Source of the DNA: Cellulosimicrobium protaetiae
Lineage (GTDB): Bacteria > Actinomycetota > Actinomycetes > Actinomycetales > Cellulomonadaceae
Reading direction: 5' to 3'
Length of the DNA: 64,000 nucleotides
NCBI RefSeq assembly: GCF_009708005.2
Contig: NZ_CP052757.1
Span: 3,720,001 to 3,784,000, forward strand
Positions 26,603 to 50,381 of the stretch are shown here, one piece after another (the stretch's first letter is position 1; every line of letters begins with the position of its first letter). A program made the translations under genes and the position numbers. The notes beneath the pieces were generated by a model. That model searched no databases. It was given only the letters and a program-made list of their open reading frames with translations, and was not told the DNA's origin.

Positions 26603-27997
26603 ATGTCGTCCGCCGAGCCGCCGGTCCTCCCACCGCCCCCCGCGCACCGCGCCGCTCCTCCCACGGGCGTCCCGGGTCCGCCCGCGTCGGTGGTCGTCGT
26701 CGGCGCGGGGCTCGCCGGCGCGCAGACGGTAGGCGCGCTCCGCCGTCGGGGCTACGCCGGTCGGGTCACGGTCCTCGGCGCCGAGGGAGTTCCTCCCTAC
26801 GACCGGCCGCCGTTGTCGAAGGAGCTCCTGAGCCGCCCGAGCCCCGCATGGCTCGCCGACGACCTGGGCGTGGACGTCGAGGACCTGGCGGACGAGGTCC
26901 GCCTCCAGGACCCGGCCGTGCAGCTGGTGCGACGCCGGGCGTCCGATGGTGGCGCGTGGGAGGTCACGACCGCGTCGGGCGACCGCCTGACCGCCGACTC
27001 CGTCGTGCTCGCGGTCGGGTCCGCGCCGGTCCGGCCCGACGGCTGGGAACAGGCCACGCTCCTGCACACCGCGCAGGACGCCGCGGCCCTGCGCGCAGCG
27101 CTGCACCCGGGGCTTCGCCTCGTGATCGTCGGCGCCGGATGGATCGGGGCCGAGCTGGCCGGCGTCGCCGTCCGCGCGGGTGCGCACGTCACGGTCCTCG
27201 AGGCCGCGGACGCACCGTTGCGCCGCCAGCTCGGACCGGTCGTCGGCGCGCACCTCTCGCCGTGGTACGCGGCCGTCGGCGCCGAGCTCGTGACCGGCGT
27301 CGCGGTCGCGCAGGTGCGGCCGGACGGCGTCCGGCTCGCCGACGGTCGCGAGCTGTCGGCCGACCTCGTGCTCGCCGCCGTGGGCGCCCGCCCCGCGACG
27401 GACTGGCTCGACGGCGCGGTCCCGCGCGACCCGCGCGGCAGCATCCCCGTGGACACCACCGGCGCGGTACCGGGCCTGGACGGGCTCTGGGCCGTGGGCG
27501 ACTGCGCGACGCGCGAGCACCCGCTGCTCGGCGCAGTCCCCGGCGGTCACTGGTCCGCCGCGCTCCACGACCCCGACGCGACGGTCGCCGCGCTGCTCGG
27601 CGACGACGAGGTCGGAACGGGCCACGCGCCCTACGTGTTCTCCCAGCAGCTCGGGCACGACCTCGCCCTGTTCGGCGTGCCCGCCGAGGGCGACATCGTG
27701 CTGTTCCGCGGCGACCCGACGGGCGGCGCGACCGGCCACGACGGCTGGGCCGCGTTCTACCTCGCCCCGGGCGCGCACTCCGGCTCCACCTCGGGCGACG
27801 GCACGACGGCGGACGGCAGCCCGGCTGCGGACGGCGGCCCCGAGCACCGGTCCATCGAGGTCCGGGCGGTCCTGCTCGTCGACTCGCCACGCGACGTCGG
27901 CCCGGTCCGCAAGGCGATGAACCGCACCGGCCGTCTCCGCGTCAACCTCGACGCCGCGCTCGACCCGACCCGCCGCCTCCGCGACGCCCTGGCCTGA
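26603..27997 (+). CDS. FAD-dependent NAD(P)/ferredoxin-type reductase
   Basis: A 464-residue flavoprotein of the ferredoxin/rubredoxin reductase family. An N-terminal Pro-rich stretch is followed by the FAD-binding VVVVGAGLAGAQTVGALRR motif, PPYDRPPLSKELL, a second dinucleotide fold (LVIVGAGWIGAELAG) for NAD(P)H, and the FAD-binding GLDGLWAVGDCA. The reductase C-terminal domain follows (YVFSQQLGHDLALFG), with a Gly/Ser/Asp-rich insertion near residues 394-415. It probably passes electrons from NAD(P)H to a ferredoxin or P450 partner not seen here. The ATG at 26603 is preferred: TAGCGT lies 7 nt upstream, suggesting a leaderless message. Confidence 0.87.
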   Translation: MSSAEPPVLPPPPAHRAAPPTGVPGPPASVVVVGAGLAGAQTVGALRRRGYAGRVTVLGAEGVPPYDRPPLSKELLSRPSPAWLADDLGVDVEDLADEVRLQDPAVQLVRRRASDGGAWEVTTASGDRLTADSVVLAVGSAPVRPDGWEQATLLHTAQDAAALRAALHPGLRLVIVGAGWIGAELAGVAVRAGAHVTVLEAADAPLRRQLGPVVGAHLSPWYAAVGAELVTGVAVAQVRPDGVRLADGRELSADLVLAAVGARPATDWLDGAVPRDPRGSIPVDTTGAVPGLDGLWAVGDCATREHPLLGAVPGGHWSAALHDPDATVAALLGDDEVGTGHAPYVFSQQLGHDLALFGVPAEGDIVLFRGDPTGGATGHDGWAAFYLAPGAHSGSTSGDGTTADGSPAADGGPEHRSIEVRAVLLVDSPRDVGPVRKAMNRTGRLRVNLDAALDPTRRLRDALA

Positions 27998-28016
27998 GCC
28001 CGCCGCGAGGCCGGTT

Positions 28017-28251
28017 GACCGCGGTGAACCGGTCGCAGGGCCAGCCGACCCCGTGACGAGCCGGGCACGAGGCGGGCCGACCCCGTGGCGAGCCGGTCAC
28101 GAAGCCAGCCGACCCGTGGCGAGCCGGTCACGAAGCCAGCCGACCCGTGGCGAGCCGGTCACGAAGCCAGCCGACCCGTGGCGACCCGGTCACGAAGCCA
28201 GCCGACCCCGTGACGAACCGGTCGCGATGCGAGCCGGTCACGAGGCGAGCC
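28017..28251 (+). repeat. 31-bp tandem repeat array
   Basis: About seven head-to-tail units of 30-32 bp, each beginning GACCC(C)GTGGCGAGCC and ending GGTCACGAAGCCAGCC. Clear unit starts are at 28047, 28079, 28111, 28142, 28173 and 28204; the copies at 28111 and 28142 are identical, and outer ones are more diverged. Each unit is itself made of two related 15-16 bp halves. There are no spacers, so it is not a CRISPR array. Confidence 0.9.
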
Positions 28252-28257
28252 GAGAGC

Positions 28258-28362
28258 GCGGGCCGAGGGACGGGGCTGCGCGCGGTCGTGGCGGGCCTGG
28301 CGGGAGCGCTGAGGAACGAGGCGCGGATGGTAGACCGCGCGCAGCCCCGTCCCTCGGCCCGC
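28258..28362 (+). ncRNA. Core-and-arms structured element, copy 1
   Basis: Perfect 30-bp arms (28,258-28,287 and 28,333-28,362) enclose a 45-nt core. The core reads GTGGCGGGCCTGGCGGGAGC, then a GCGCT/GGCGC mini-stem that shares its first GC with this block, around loop GAGGAACGA, then GCGGATGGTA. The core is nearly identical to cores at 36,989-37,034 (opposite strand) and 47,853-47,901, while the arms are unrelated in sequence. GTC before and GAC after the core are constant. The inner mini-stem varies with compensation between copies, which points to a folded RNA or single-stranded DNA. Called ncRNA for lack of a better type; transcription is not shown. Confidence 0.65.
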
Positions 28363-28401
28363 CCCGACCAGACCAGACCGGAATCTGACCGGGATTCCCG
28401 G

Positions 28402-30084
28402 TCAGTGCGCGAAGTGGCGCGTCCCCGTGAAGTACATCGTCACGCCCGCCGCCTGCGCCGCCTCGATCACCTCGGCGTCGCGGATCGACCCGCCCGGCGC
28501 GACGACGGCACGCACGCCCGCGTCGAGGAGGATCTGCAGGCCGTCGGCGAAGGGGAAGAACGCGTCGGACGCCGCGACGGCGCCGCGCGCCCGCTCCTGC
28601 CCGTCGGCGAGGGTGTTGGCGCGCTCGACCGCGAGGCGGCACGAGTCCACGCGGTTGACCTGTCCCATCCCGACGCCGACGGCGGCGCCGTCGTGCGCGA
28701 GGAGGATCGCGTTGGACTTCGCGGCACGGATCGCGCGCCACGCGAACGCGAGGTCGGCGAGCGTCGCGTCGTCGGCGGCCTCGCCGGTGACGAGGTTCCA
28801 GTGCTGCGGGTCGTCGCCGCCCGTGACCTGGCCCTCGGTGTCCGTCACGACGGCGTCGACCCGGTCCACGCTCTGCACGAGCAGCCCGCCGCTGATCGGC
28901 CGTGTCTCGACGGCCGCCGCGGGCGGGGCGTCGACGACGAGGAGGCGGATGTTCTTCTTCGCCCGGAGGATCTCCAGCGCCTCGGGCTCGAAGCCGGGCG
29001 CCACGACGACCTCGGTGAACACGGGCGCGATCTGCTCGGCGGCAGCCTTGGTGACGACGCCGTTGGCCGCGATGACGCCGCCGTAGGCCGAGACGGGGTC
29101 GGTCGCGTGGGCCCGGGCGTGGGCGTCGGCGACGTCGGTGCCGACCGCGATGCCGCACGGGTTCGCGTGCTTGATGATCGCCACGGCCGGCGCGGTGTGG
29201 TCGTGCGCGGCGCGCCACGCGGCGTCGGCGTCGACGTAGTTGTTGTAGCTCATGGCCTTGCCGTGGAGCTGCGTGGCCTGGGCGAGGCCGTTCCGGCCGT
29301 CGCCGTTCGTGTACAGCGCGGCGCGCTGGTGCGGGTTCTCGCCGTAGCGCAGTACGTCGGCGCGGTCCCACGTCGCACCGATCCAGGCCGGGAAGCCCGT
29401 GCTCACGGTCTCGCCGTCGGCCGGGACCGCGTCCGTGGGCGCCACGACGTTCCCCATCCAGGACGCGACCGCGACGTCGTACGTCGCGGTGTGCACGAAC
29501 GCGGCGGCCGCGAGCGCCTTGCGCTGCGCGTAGGTGAAACCGCCCGCCTGCACGGCCGCCACGACGTCGTCGTACCGGGCCGGGTCGACGACGACGGCGA
29601 CGCTCGGGTGGTTCTTCGCGGCCGCGCGGACCATCGAGGGCCCGCCGATGTCGATCTGCTCGACGACCTCGTCCGGCCCCGCACCCGACGCGACGGTCGC
29701 GGCGAACGGGTAGAGGTTGACGACGACGAGCTCGAACGGCGCGATGCCGAGCTCGTCGAGCTGCGCGAGGTGGTCGGCCTTGCGCGAGTCCGCGAGGATC
29801 CCGGCGTGCACGCGCGGGTGGAGCGTCTTGACCCGGCCCTCGAGGCACTCGGGGAACCCGGTGAGGTCCTCGACCTTCGTCACGGGGACGCCCGCACCCG
29901 CGATCGTCGACGCGGTGGAGCCGGTGGAGACGAGCTCGACGCCCGCGGCGTGGAGCGCGGTGGCGAGCTCGACGAGGCCGGTCTTGTCGTAGACGCTCAG
30001 GAGCGCGCGCCGCACGGGACGCTGCGCGTCGTCGGCGAGCTGGACGTCGGGGGCGGCAGGCACGTGCGGGGCCGGGTGGGACAT
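28402..30084 (-). CDS. purH: Bifunctional AICAR transformylase / IMP cyclohydrolase
   Basis: A 560-residue enzyme of the last two steps of purine synthesis, using 10-formyl-THF to formylate AICAR and then closing the ring to IMP. The N-terminal cyclohydrolase domain has [30 protein letters not shown] and [15 protein letters not shown]. The transformylase domain has [11 protein letters not shown] with the catalytic Lys-His, and ends [15 protein letters not shown] and TGTRHFAH. A 40-residue extension precedes the domain. The ATG at 30084 has GAGGAG about 10 nt upstream. A ZTP riboswitch in the leader senses the phosphorylated form of its own substrate, AICAR (ZMP/ZTP), so induction by substrate build-up is expected. 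Confidence 0.95.
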
Positions 30085-36827: not shown

Positions 36828-36932
36828 CGAGACAGAACCCTCGTTCGGCCGAAGGAGAACCTGGTCGCGCGAGATAGAACCCTGGTCGGCCGAAGTAGAA
36901 CCGCGGTCACGCGAGGTAGAACGCTGGTTCTT
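36828..36932 (+). repeat. Five about 21-bp tandem repeats after the MFS gene
   Basis: Units of 20-22 bp start at 36828, 36850, 36870, 36891 and 36912, each close to CGAGGTAGAACCCTGG followed by TCGGC or TCACG. The array begins 8 nt after the TGA of the upstream gene and reads in the gene's sense direction. Same family as 11,900-11,987 and 37,547-37,630. Confidence 0.85.
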
Positions 36933-36961: not shown

Positions 36962-37061
36962 GGTCGGGGTGGGTGGTGGTGCCGCGTCTACCATCCGCCG
37001 CTCGTTCCTCGCGGCTCCCGCCAGGCCCAGCCACGACGCGGCACCACCACCCACCCCGACC
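36962..37061 (-). ncRNA. Core-and-arms structured element, copy 2
   Basis: Perfect 27-bp arms (36,962-36,988 and 37,035-37,061) enclose a 46-nt core read on the minus strand. It matches copy 1 and copy 3: GTGGCTGGGCCTGGCGGGAG, mini-stem GCCGC/GCGGC around GAGGAACGA, and GCGGATGGTA. The arms, rich in GGTGGTGGT, share nothing with those of the other copies apart from the constant GTC/GAC next to the core. It lies between convergent genes, flanked by 21-bp repeats. Confidence 0.65.
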
Positions 37062-37405: not shown

Positions 37406-37518
37406 CGGTGGGGGTGGGCTCGGATGCGAAGGGGCGTCAGAGCGGCGCTCCTCAGACCCACGGCCGAGGGACCGGGGTGATGGCGCCGCAGCCCCGAGCA
37501 CCGAGGCCGCCCCCACCG
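37406..37518. repeat. Imperfect large inverted repeat
   Basis: Arms 37,406-37,423 and 37,501-37,518 pair at 16 of 18 positions. Further pairing is possible inside (GGGGC and GCGGCGC blocks), leaving a central loop of about 34 nt. The core motif of the other structured elements is absent. It could be a decayed relative or simply a terminator of the DUF6350 gene. Confidence 0.45.
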
Positions 37519-37546: not shown

Positions 37547-37630
37547 GACCAGGGTTCTACCTCGGCAGACCAGAGTTCTACCTCGCGCGACCACGGTTCT
37601 GCCTCGCGCGACCAGAGTTCTACCTCGGCG
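37547..37630 (-). repeat. Four 21-bp tandem repeats overlapping the DUF6350 stop codon
   Basis: Four exact 21-bp steps start at 37547, 37568, 37589 and 37610. On the minus strand each reads close to CGAGGTAGAACTCTGGTC. The unit nearest the gene contains the TAG stop (37,620-37,622) and encodes the last residues of DUF6350, so the repeat has grown into, or supplied, the gene end. Same family and same gene-relative orientation as the other two arrays. Confidence 0.85.
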
Positions 37631-47594: not shown

Positions 47595-50381
47595 TCAGAG
47601 CTTTGTCACGGGCGAGTAGCGCAGCAGGAGACGCTTGGTCCCGTCGGCCCCGAAGTCGATCTTCGCGACGGCGTTCGGCCCGGCGCCCTCGAGCGCGACG
47701 ACCGTCCCGAGCCCGTACGCGTCGTGCGTCACCTTGTCCCCCACCGCGAGGTTCGGCACGTCCCCGTCGGCCCGCGGCGTCGCGGACCCGAACTTCGCCC
47801 CACCGGTAGGCGAGCCGAACGCGGCGCGGGCAGGGGCCGACGACGACGGGTCGTGGCGGGCCTGGCGGGAGCGGCCCGAGGAACGAGGGCCGCGGAGGGT
47901 AGACCCGTCGTCGTCGGCCCCGGACCGCGCCCCCGACCACGACCCGGACCCCGACCGCGACCCAGACCAGGAGCCGGAGCCGGAGCCGCGACCCCACACG
48001 GACCCGCCCGCGCGCAGGGTCGCCATCGACGACTCGCGCCGCCGCCAGTCCCACAGCTCCTCGGGGATCTCCTCGAGGAACCGACTCGGCGGGAACTCGT
48101 TCGCCATGCCCCACGCGGACCGCACCGCGGACCGCGACACGTAGAGCCGCTCGCGCGCGCGGGTGATGCCCACGTAGGCGAGGCGGCGCTCCTCGGCGAG
48201 CTCGGCGTCGTCGTGCAGGGATCGCATGTGCGGGAACGTCCCGTCCTCCATGCCGGTGAGGAAGACGACGGGGAACTCGAGACCCTTGGCCGTGTGGAGC
48301 GTCATGAGCGTGACGACGCCCGGGTCCTCCTTCTCCTCGCCCTCCGCTTCGTCGTCCGCGTCGTCCGCGGGGATCTGGTCGGCGTCGGCGACGAGCGAGA
48401 CACGCTCGAGGAAGTCGGACAGCGTGCCCTCGGGGTCCAGCTCGGTGAACTCCGTCGCGACGGCGTGCAGCTCGGCGAGGTTCTCGACACGCGTCGCGTC
48501 CTGCGGGTCGTCGCTCGCGCGCAGCTCGGCGAGGTAACCCGTGCGGTCGAGCACGGCACCGAGGATGTCCGACGGCGTCGCGCCGGAGTCCGCGAGCTCG
48601 CGCAGGCCGGTCATGAGCTCGACGAACGCGCGCAGCGGGTTGAGCGTGCGGTTGGTGAGGCCGGGGATCTCGTCGATGCGGGCGAGCGCCGCGCCGAACG
48701 AGATCCGCTCGCGGTCCGCGAGCGCCGCGACCGCGCCCTCGGCCCGGTCCCCGAGCCCGCGCTTGGGGGTGTTGAGCACGCGGCGCAGGTTGACGTCGTC
48801 GTCGAGGTTGTCGATCGCGCGCAGGTACGCCACGGCGTCCTTGACCTCGCGGCGCTCGTAGAAGCGCGTGCCGCCGACGACCTTGTAGGGCAGGCCGACG
48901 CGGATGAGCACCTCTTCCAGCGCGCGGGACTGGGCGTTGGTCCGGTAGAACACGGCGACGTCGCCGGGGCGCACGCCGTCGGAGTCGCCGAGGCGGTCGA
49001 TCTCCTCCGCGACGAACCGCGCCTCCTCGTGCTCGTTGTCCGCGACGTAGCCGATGACCTTCGCGCCCGCGCCCGAGTCGGTCCACAGCCGCTTGGGCTT
49101 GCGGTCGGGGTTGCGCGAGATGACGGCGTTGGCCGCGGAGAGGATGTTCTGGGTCGAGCGGTAGTTCTGCTCGAGCAGGATGGTGCGCGCGTCGGGGTAG
49201 TCGGCCTCGAACTCGAGGATGTTGCGGATCGTCGCGCCGCGGAACGCGTAGATCGACTGGTCGGCGTCGCCGACGACCGTGAGCTCCGCGGGGTCGAGCG
49301 CGGGGACCTGCGCCGCGCCCGTCCCGCTCGTCGCGGCGTCGGTCGCGGCGGAGTCCTCGCCGACGCCCGCGAGCTCGCGCACGAGCACGTACTGCGCGTG
49401 GTTGGTGTCCTGGTACTCGTCGACGAGCACGTGCCGGAACCGGCGGCGGTAGTGCTCCGCGACGGCCGGGAACGCCTGGAGCAGGTTGACCGTCGTCATG
49501 ATGATGTCGTCGAAGTCGAGCGCGCTCGCCGCGACGAGCCGCGCCTGGTAGCGCGTGTAGACGTCGGCGAGCACCTGGTCGAACTCGGGCACGCTCGCGC
49601 CGTGCTGGCCGCCGCGCGCCGCGAGCCCGTCGTCGGTCGCGTGCGCTCCCGAGTCGCGCGCGTAGGTCTCGGGGTCGACGAGCTCGTTCTTGAGGTCCGA
49701 GATCTTGTTGGCGAGCGAGCGGGCCGGGTACTTCTTGGGGTCGAGGTCCAGCTCGCGCGTGACGAGCGTGATCAGGCGCTGCGAGTCCGCGGCGTCGTAG
49801 ATCGAGAAGCTCGACCGCAGCCCGAGCGTCTTGGCCTCGCGCCGCAGGATGCGCACGCACGCCGAGTGGAACGTCGAGACCCACATGTTCCGCGCGCCCG
49901 GCCCCACGAGCGTCTCGACGCGCTCGCGCATCTCCGCCGCAGCCTTGTTGGTGAACGTGATCGCGAGGATCTGCCCGGCGTTGGACCGGCGCGTGGCGAG
50001 CAGGTACGCGATGCGGTGCGTGAGCACGCGCGTCTTGCCCGACCCCGCACCCGCCACGATGAGCAGCGGCCCGCCCGCGTGCACGACGGCCTCGCGCTGC
50101 TGCGGGTTGAGCCCGTCGAGCAGCGCCTCGGGATCGAGGTGGGCGTACCGGCCGCGACGCTCGCCCGGCACCGAGCCCGACGACGCGCTGTCGCCTCCCG
50201 TCCCCGCCCCGCCCTGGGCGCCGTCCCCGGCGGGCGACCCCGCGCCGTCGGGCACGGCCGGGTCGTCGGTCCAGCGCGGGGCGGTCCGCGGGAGGCGGGA
50301 CTCGCCGCCGTGGTCGACGCGCGGGCCGTCGAACAGCGTGTCGAGGCCGGGCAGCGGGAGGTTCTCGAAGAGCGAAGCCAT
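47595..50381 (-). CDS. pcrA: ATP-dependent DNA helicase PcrA/UvrD
   Basis: A 928-residue superfamily 1A helicase for repair and removal of replication blocks. In order: LNPQQREAVVHAGGPLLIVA, Walker A AGAGSGKTRVLTHR, AITFTNKAAAEMRERV, STFHSACVRILRR, LVDEYQDTNHAQ (Walker B), VVGDADQSIYAFRGAT, EQNYRSTQNIL, MTLHTAKGLEFPVVFL and EERRLAYVGITRARERLYVS. An 85-residue polar N-terminal extension precedes the core. The C-terminal linker (about 785-855) is Gly/Ser/Trp/Arg-rich and contains residues 817-853 encoded by a core-and-arms element. A tudor-like RNA-polymerase-binding tail ends the protein (VGDKVTHDAYGLGTVVALEG). TAGGCT lies 9 nt before the ATG. Confidence 0.95.
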   Translation of the reverse strand: MASLFENLPLPGLDTLFDGPRVDHGGESRLPRTAPRWTDDPAVPDGAGSPAGDGAQGGAGTGGDSASSGSVPGERRGRYAHLDPEALLDGLNPQQREAVVHAGGPLLIVAGAGSGKTRVLTHRIAYLLATRRSNAGQILAITFTNKAAAEMRERVETLVGPGARNMWVSTFHSACVRILRREAKTLGLRSSFSIYDAADSQRLITLVTRELDLDPKKYPARSLANKISDLKNELVDPETYARDSGAHATDDGLAARGGQHGASVPEFDQVLADVYTRYQARLVAASALDFDDIIMTTVNLLQAFPAVAEHYRRRFRHVLVDEYQDTNHAQYVLVRELAGVGEDSAATDAATSGTGAAQVPALDPAELTVVGDADQSIYAFRGATIRNILEFEADYPDARTILLEQNYRSTQNILSAANAVISRNPDRKPKRLWTDSGAGAKVIGYVADNEHEEARFVAEEIDRLGDSDGVRPGDVAVFYRTNAQSRALEEVLIRVGLPYKVVGGTRFYERREVKDAVAYLRAIDNLDDDVNLRRVLNTPKRGLGDRAEGAVAALADRERISFGAALARIDEIPGLTNRTLNPLRAFVELMTGLRELADSGATPSDILGAVLDRTGYLAELRASDDPQDATRVENLAELHAVATEFTELDPEGTLSDFLERVSLVADADQIPADDADDEAEGEEKEDPGVVTLMTLHTAKGLEFPVVFLTGMEDGTFPHMRSLHDDAELAEERRLAYVGITRARERLYVSRSAVRSAWGMANEFPPSRFLEEIPEELWDWRRRESSMATLRAGGSVWGRGSGSGSWSGSRSGSGSWSGARSGADDDGSTLRGPRSSGRSRQARHDPSSSAPARAAFGSPTGGAKFGSATPRADGDVPNLAVGDKVTHDAYGLGTVVALEGAGPNAVAKIDFGADGTKRLLLRYSPVTKL
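47823..47931 (+). ncRNA. Core-and-arms structured element, copy 3, inside pcrA
   Basis: Perfect 20-bp arms (47,833-47,852 and 47,902-47,921), extended by 7 bp beyond a 3x3 internal mismatch, enclose a 49-nt core. The core has GTGGCGGGCCTGGCGGGAGC, a 7-bp mini-stem GCGGCCC/GGGCCGC (its first GC shared with the block) around GAGGAACGA, then GCGGAGGGTA. The element is antisense to pcrA and keeps its reading frame, adding about 36 residues (DDDGSTLRG...) to a flexible linker. Its arms do not resemble those of copies 1 and 2. Confidence 0.68.

Follow-up and report, generated by a model that had tools for sequence, protein, structure and literature searches.

A dispersed, apparently mobile hairpin element of Actinomycetales with a conserved core and freely varying paired arms

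Three copies of a structured element in the analysed window

The window, a stretch of 64,000 nucleotides from Cellulosimicrobium protaetiae (contig NZ_CP052757.1), carries three copies of a hairpin element. As an earlier note had located them, they share a core of 45-49 nt between arms that pair without a mismatch over 30, 27 and 20 bp. Copy 1 lies on the plus strand. Its left arm (28258..28287, 30 nt) pairs by Watson-Crick rules at 30 of 30 positions with the complementary right arm (28333..28362, 30 nt), and the 45-nt core (28288..28332) consists of an 18-nt 5' strand of an internal loop, a 5-bp mini-stem (GCGCT/GGCGC) closed by the 9-nt loop GAGGAACGA, and an 8-nt 3' strand, GGATGGTA. A 5' leader (28244..28257, plus strand; GGCGAGCCGAGA...) precedes the left arm and fits the family motif GGYGAS. 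Copy 2 lies on the minus strand, with its right arm (27 nt, GACGCGGCACCACCACCCACCCCGACC) at 36962..36988, its core at 36989..37034 and its left arm (27 nt) at 37035..37061; the sequence GGTGAG is found approximately 25-30 nt farther out. Copy 3 (plus strand) is composed of a left arm of 20 nt (47833..47852), a core of 49 nt (47853..47901) and a right arm of 20 nt (47902..47921) that pair at 20 of 20 positions. It runs antisense within the frame of pcrA, which occupies 47595-50381 on the minus strand, in the linker ahead of the PcrA tudor domain.

The core is indeed common to the three copies, though its wording in the earlier note needs correction, since copy 2 has one added base (GTGGCTGGGCC...) and copy 3 has GCGGAGGGTA in place of GCGGATGGTA. 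With at most 3 mismatches allowed, the window contains the 20-mer GTGGCGGGCCTGGCGGGAGC two times, where shuffled sequences are expected to give 0.06 occurrences. The 9-mer loop by itself is weak evidence, as its three occurrences in the window are equalled in 3 of 100 shuffles. The arms had been considered unrelated between copies; this is true of copies 1 and 3, but copy 2 carries the arm of an amplified subfamily to which 23 of 41 other copies examined in the same genome belong. RNA folding of copy 1 gives z-scores of -6.2 for the plus and -5.6 for the minus strand, both driven by the arms, and the predicted apex is not the same as the covarying mini-stem described below.

Other repeats are found around these copies. 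The gap beside copy 1 (28020-28250) is filled by imperfect tandem repeats (GAGCCGGTCACGAAGCCAGCCGACCC), none of which was seen by eye in 420 bases of 16 relatives. Arrays of 20-22 bp tandem repeats (CGAGGTAGAACC...) lie on both sides of copy 2 (36828-36923, plus strand; 37553-37627, minus strand), and related repeats adjoin many other copies of the amplified subfamily. A second dispersed structured repeat, CTCGGTGCTCGGGGCTG...GACGCCCCTTCGCATCCGAG between arms of the GGTGGGGGTGG/CCACCCCCACC type, is present at 37419-37505 (minus strand); it has 21 distinct copies among the loci examined and is frequently near the amplified subfamily.

Architecture of the family

The architecture was surveyed in 199 copies collected after removal of exact duplicates, of copies near locus ends and of those with a pairing score below 6. 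The plus-strand core reads GTGGCGGGYCTGGCGGGA, mini-stem, GAGGVACGA, mini-stem, GGATGGTA, with a purine-rich internal loop of 18/8 nt. The mini-stem has 4-7 bp in 186 of the 199 copies, the 13 with unequal sides being left out of this count. Including its loops, the helix around the core is 25-33 positions long in 104 of 123 distinct copies when searched up to 36 positions, and 10 of the 103 copies whose inner arms are good show a GGA/GGA loop at helix positions 20-22. The motif GGYGAS precedes the left arm in 75 of the 123 distinct copies (shuffle mean 14.9, maximum 23) and is missing by pattern in the other 48; downstream it is found 28 times, and on the opposite strand 16 and 20 times. The letters of the helix are free while their pairing is kept.

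Two roles of the core were considered and dropped. A peptide encoded in the core is contradicted by the mini-stem, the length of which varies by single base pairs, so that any frame through the core would shift. A CsrA sponge, suggested by the AGGA in the loop, fits poorly with loop changes to GAGGGACGA and GAGGCACGA. Separately, one copy (L167; 7070-7150, minus strand) has mismatched left and right arms. Its right arm is the one found in the L023 copy, which gives it the look of a product of recombination between two copies inside the core.

Arms and mini-stem covary

The mini-stem had been reported to covary, and the larger set bears this out for mini-stem and arms alike, far above shuffled and slid controls. 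In 24 gap-free copies, restricted to those with 5 bp in the mini-stem and 18 nt in the loop strand and including the chimera L167, the family-wide covariation score is 0.603, whereas shuffles give 0.115 +/- 0.017 and slides no more than 0.110; 98.9% of cells are paired, and both sides have changed in 18 of 23 pairs. Arms in the 199-copy set were defined by pairing; this alignment and the count of distinct arms that follows use fixed positions. A single register holds 147 of the 199 copies, 79 of them with distinct arms, and at positions 1-18 of these 79 the arms are 95.7% Watson-Crick paired, compared with 59.2% after random exchange of right arms between copies. Covariation is also seen at one orthologous site (L018, beside yebC, assigned by Pfam), aligned from 12 of 14 copies (L365 and L330 were left out, L330 having one mini-stem mismatch). 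Its nine distinct rows are 99.1% paired, both sides have changed in 11 of 27 pairs, and the score is 0.404 versus 0.114.

The mispairs are not symmetric. G·T exceeds A·C by 19 to 7 in distinct arms and by 8 to 2 in mini-stems, 27 to 9 when pooled (p=0.004, an indicative value as the copies are related), and by 52 to 22 in a larger, less independent set. DNA correction acting alone would give the two in equal numbers, so this excess suggests that folding probably takes place on the strand as written. The proposal of a folded RNA under selection, read more broadly as a folded strand, is therefore supported by the covariation in the family and at the orthologous site and by the G·T excess.

Family size and distribution

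A covariance model built from ten copies finds 58 copies in the genome of the window at E<=0.01. The core pattern, with up to two mismatches, has 41 matches there, compared with 6 for the reversed pattern. With the same model, copies were recovered from 16 of 16 other Cellulosimicrobium genomes, with 12-79 matches each. The search that gave these, scoring at most 86 candidate places per genome, was positive in 21 of 59 genomes; a sample of the order (17 places per genome) was positive in 19 of 297, both counts including the genome of the window, which was alone positive among 396 genomes in a sample of the phylum (12 places per genome). Because few places were scored and the filters were strict in the order and phylum searches, weak or sparse copies can escape these counts. 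A pattern scan of named genomes gave at least 120 matching stretches, and the matches listed include Cellulosimicrobium, Luteimicrobium, Isoptericola, Oerskovia, Antribacter, Pseudactinotalea and Actinomyces, one Jatrophihabitans MAG and a few others. The family therefore extends beyond the genus; outside Cellulosimicrobium its occurrence is sporadic.

Viral contigs gave no match to the exact pattern, and plasmids and phages gave no match either; carriage by a plasmid or phage was accordingly dropped. At the gathering cut-off of Rfam release 15, none of the window copies and none of eight loci of relatives has a match. The window itself gives two ZTP riboswitches elsewhere (RF01750; 5024-5134 and 30147-30235, both minus strand), and E-value scans return sub-cut-off matches only, mostly to miRNA families. 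In the open-access literature, which leaves most subscription papers outside its scope, no title or abstract start was recognised as describing the family.

Shared arms and empty sites

Several groups of copies have the same arms at unrelated loci. One arm 12-mer is common to 27 of the 199 collected copies. For the genome of the window, arms of 41 of the 58 copies were aligned together with copy 2; 23 of the 41 form the amplified subfamily and 18 have other arms. Smaller groups are composed of the pcrA unit with L244/L245, of L025/L050/L126/L166, of L011/L194 and, in Luteimicrobium, of L146/L170/L205. L011 and L194 have the same arms but a different mini-stem and loop, indicating that core and arms can separate.

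Occupancy was compared at 10 of 11 anchored sites (L023 was left out), and for L002, L031 and L032 the comparison covered a subset of the genomes. The purH site has the element in none of 16 other genomes, the L002 site in none of three, and the sites of L009, L026, L029 and L030 in none of five each; the left flank of L332 failed to align at the L026 site. Filled orthologous sites were observed for L012 (1 of 5), L015 (11 of 15), L018 (13 of 15), L031 (8 of 15) and L032 (2 of 3), and the copy-2 site is filled in 4 of 15 loci, its own included. The matches at the L009 site, which represent a neighbouring copy, and that of L363, which lies elsewhere, are excluded from these counts. Two relatives (L337 and L321) have lost the core and keep a plain hairpin in its place. 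A separate family of hairpins, CGAGCACGAC...GTCGTGCTCG with a variable inner stem, was noticed at L290, L295-L298, L310, L315, L316, L323, L333-L335 and L338, in sister-species gaps where the window genome carries the element described here.

The same arms at unrelated loci, together with empty sites in sister species, indicate that the element appears to be mobile and that its arms would travel along with it. None of the comparisons showed a precise insertion into an empty site that was identical in all other respects, the compared intergenic regions mostly differing as wholes, and boundaries compared by eye gave no clear target duplications or terminal repeats.

Orthologous sites also give some insight into how arms change. 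At L018, L031 and L012, core and inner arm point to descent, while the outer arms differ blockwise and still pair. At flank identities of approximately 85-97%, such blockwise change exceeds single compensations and is poorly explained by one-by-one compensation, so that correction directed by the hairpin may contribute, as may the replacement of one copy by a different one. For L015, a pair of opposite elements of which one or the other was lost fits better. Inversion of the core between the arms, considered for ligD, was dropped, as L347 and L358 point to neighbouring opposite elements and differential loss, though they do not prove it.

Copies in coding frames and at gene ends

The element is present in pcrA of 15 of 17 species, with frames open; part of the core appears to be deleted in G007, and in G012 no remnant was seen. 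In ligD (Pfam), both frame and core could be identified at 11 loci; at all 11 the core falls within an open frame, in the sense of the gene in 7 and antisense in 4 (L345, without the motif, is not counted). Copies in open pcrA and ligD frames imply that termination is not an obligatory function, and they speak against strong termination at these sites.

Based on gene calls made from frame composition only, 88 non-orthologous loci divide into 43 intergenic, 25 unclear and 20 in called frames, several of which are probably false. The 43 intergenic loci comprise 16 convergent, 15 minus-tandem, 8 plus-tandem and 4 divergent gaps, and control gaps in the same loci are, by length, 22.7% convergent and 7.7% divergent. 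The excess in convergent gaps is modest and divergent gaps are not depleted. One gene end, that of a ribonucleotide reductase gene, carries the element in Cellulosimicrobium, Luteimicrobium and two further genera, and this site is without the element in 5 of 5 close sisters.

Discussion

Relation to known repeats

The earlier note held that ordinary REPs do not look like this, which is correct for size and core; dispersal and opposite-strand pairs, by contrast, are REP/MITE-like, and one such pair approximately 440 bp apart occurs in G000 (the window genome), G011 and G016. As described in PMC3733652, REP/RAYT palindromes of the GTAG and CGTC families are, like this element, dispersed stem-loops with many copies per genome, dimers, complementary stem variation, G·T pairs and a conserved unpaired tag. 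The same source gives GTAG-family stems of 6-13 bp with mostly short loops and a link to tyrosine transposases. In contrast, the present helix has approximately 25-33 positions and the core 45-49 nt; GGTAG sits on the 3' side of the core and a terminal GTAG/CGTC tag is absent. Furthermore, Y1_Tnp (PF01797) was found in none of 25 genomes, of which 17 match the covariance model and 8 do not (a control was positive in 5 of 14 known genomes), and a REP/RAYT system proper was therefore rejected.

The element also resembles MITEs, the Rickettsia palindromic elements in particular (PMC10969869), in being approximately 100-150 bp long and non-coding and in lying both in frame within proteins and between genes. 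Like MITEs, it occupies unrelated loci while orthologous sites in relatives are empty; no clear terminal repeats or target duplications were seen at boundaries judged by eye, no parent transposase was found and, unlike fixed transposon ends, the arm letters are free. Integron attC sites (PMC2727003) are recognised as a folded single strand by structure despite little sequence conservation. In the present element, on the other hand, what stays fixed is a large core at the apex, gene cassettes seem, by impression, to be absent, and no integron integrase (TIGR02249) exceeds the curated cut-off in the same 25 genomes, although all 25, like 14 of 14 controls, have matches below that threshold; an attC/IntI system was rejected on this last ground. 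A recurrent neighbour gene as mobiliser was rejected as well, since the clusters looked at among the 25 largest represent orthologous loci.

In Actinobacteria, long GC-rich hairpin terminators lacking a U-tract lie between convergent genes. The present element differs from these in its fixed core, its dispersal and its occurrence inside translated genes. Collectively, the family is real, apparently mobile and conserved in structure; it is REP/MITE-like in action, and the features tested show membership of neither group.

Alternative explanations

We consider, with moderate confidence, that the family represents a non-autonomous mobile element dispersed in Actinomycetales, approximately 110-130 bp long, REP/MITE-like in behaviour and recognised by its folded architecture. 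A different possibility, which we find unlikely, is a 3' structured RNA used by the host as a bidirectional terminator or mRNA stabiliser and copied incidentally, with host selection keeping the fold. The share of convergent gaps (16 of 43 loci against 22.7% of control length), the other long perfect hairpins of sister species in several of the same gaps and the recurrence at the reductase gene end in four genera are in line with it. However, copies within open pcrA (15 of 17 species) and ligD (11 loci) frames must be transcribed and translated through, the gene orientation is mixed (15 minus-tandem, 8 plus-tandem), and several sites, including that of the reductase (5 of 5), are empty in close sisters. 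Copy 1 also has no T-run after its stem, in a scan of 27900-28500 that accepts loops of 3-8 only. Quite unlikely, in our estimate, is a dedicated plus-strand RNA (a ribozyme, a protein-binding or another trans-acting RNA) dispersed as a selfish RNA-based element. The large conserved purine-rich internal loop and the hairpin loop, the G·T bias on one strand and the directional leader would suit such an RNA, but copies lie both ways round in genes, Rfam has no match at the gathering cut-off, and the 600 bases around copy 1 contain no promoter-like site as judged by a sigma-70 pattern only.

Two further explanations concern the arms. If palindrome correction at the DNA level, by template switching in the hairpin, rather than selection, mainly kept the arms complementary, the blockwise and almost perfectly paired differences between orthologous arms at L018 (yebC), L031 and L012 would be expected; the conserved unpaired core and the covarying mini-stem would not, and a symmetric process leaves the excess of G·T over A·C unexplained. 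Moreover, the decayed L232 and L235 are uncorrected and the arms of chimera L167 do not match. We therefore regard correction as the main cause as highly improbable, although it may act additionally. The earlier note had also suggested a mobile core that inverts and duplicates its target. The mobility appears justified, and the 18 of 41 own copies with arms outside the amplified subfamily could be read in favour of insertion of a bare core with inverse duplication of its target. Nevertheless, such a duplication is contradicted and hardly credible, as the same arms stand at unrelated loci, arm length is kept, the leader lies outside the arms, and element-free sites show, by eye, no trace of arm sequence.

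Proposed recognition and significance

For the preferred reading, a mobile element recognised by its fold, we propose that a protein supplied in trans would recognise the folded plus strand via the core. This strand could be single-stranded DNA at replication, or RNA, and the arms would serve as a structural handle. Such recognition would leave loops conserved and arm letters free, would favour G·T over A·C and a directional leader, and would let copies be tolerated between genes and in coding linkers. Where copies lie between convergent genes, they can probably serve in place of the long hairpins of sister species, as a by-product. We put forward only tentatively, as a rather unlikely case, that the family represents a new mobile non-coding class recognised by architecture and moved by a hitherto unknown actinobacterial enzyme unrelated to RAYT and integron integrases. 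Its folded plus strand would be either RNA, possibly with an activity of its own, or ssDNA; the core at its apex would be conserved, and its arms would be measured by length and free in sequence.

Repeats are usually known by their sequence. Here, pairing, length and core are kept and most letters are free. Compensatory mutants occur naturally by the dozen in each genome, and close species differ in which sites are filled. The movement of a structure-recognised element, and the possible recruitment of hairpins between genes from such elements, thereby become directly testable.
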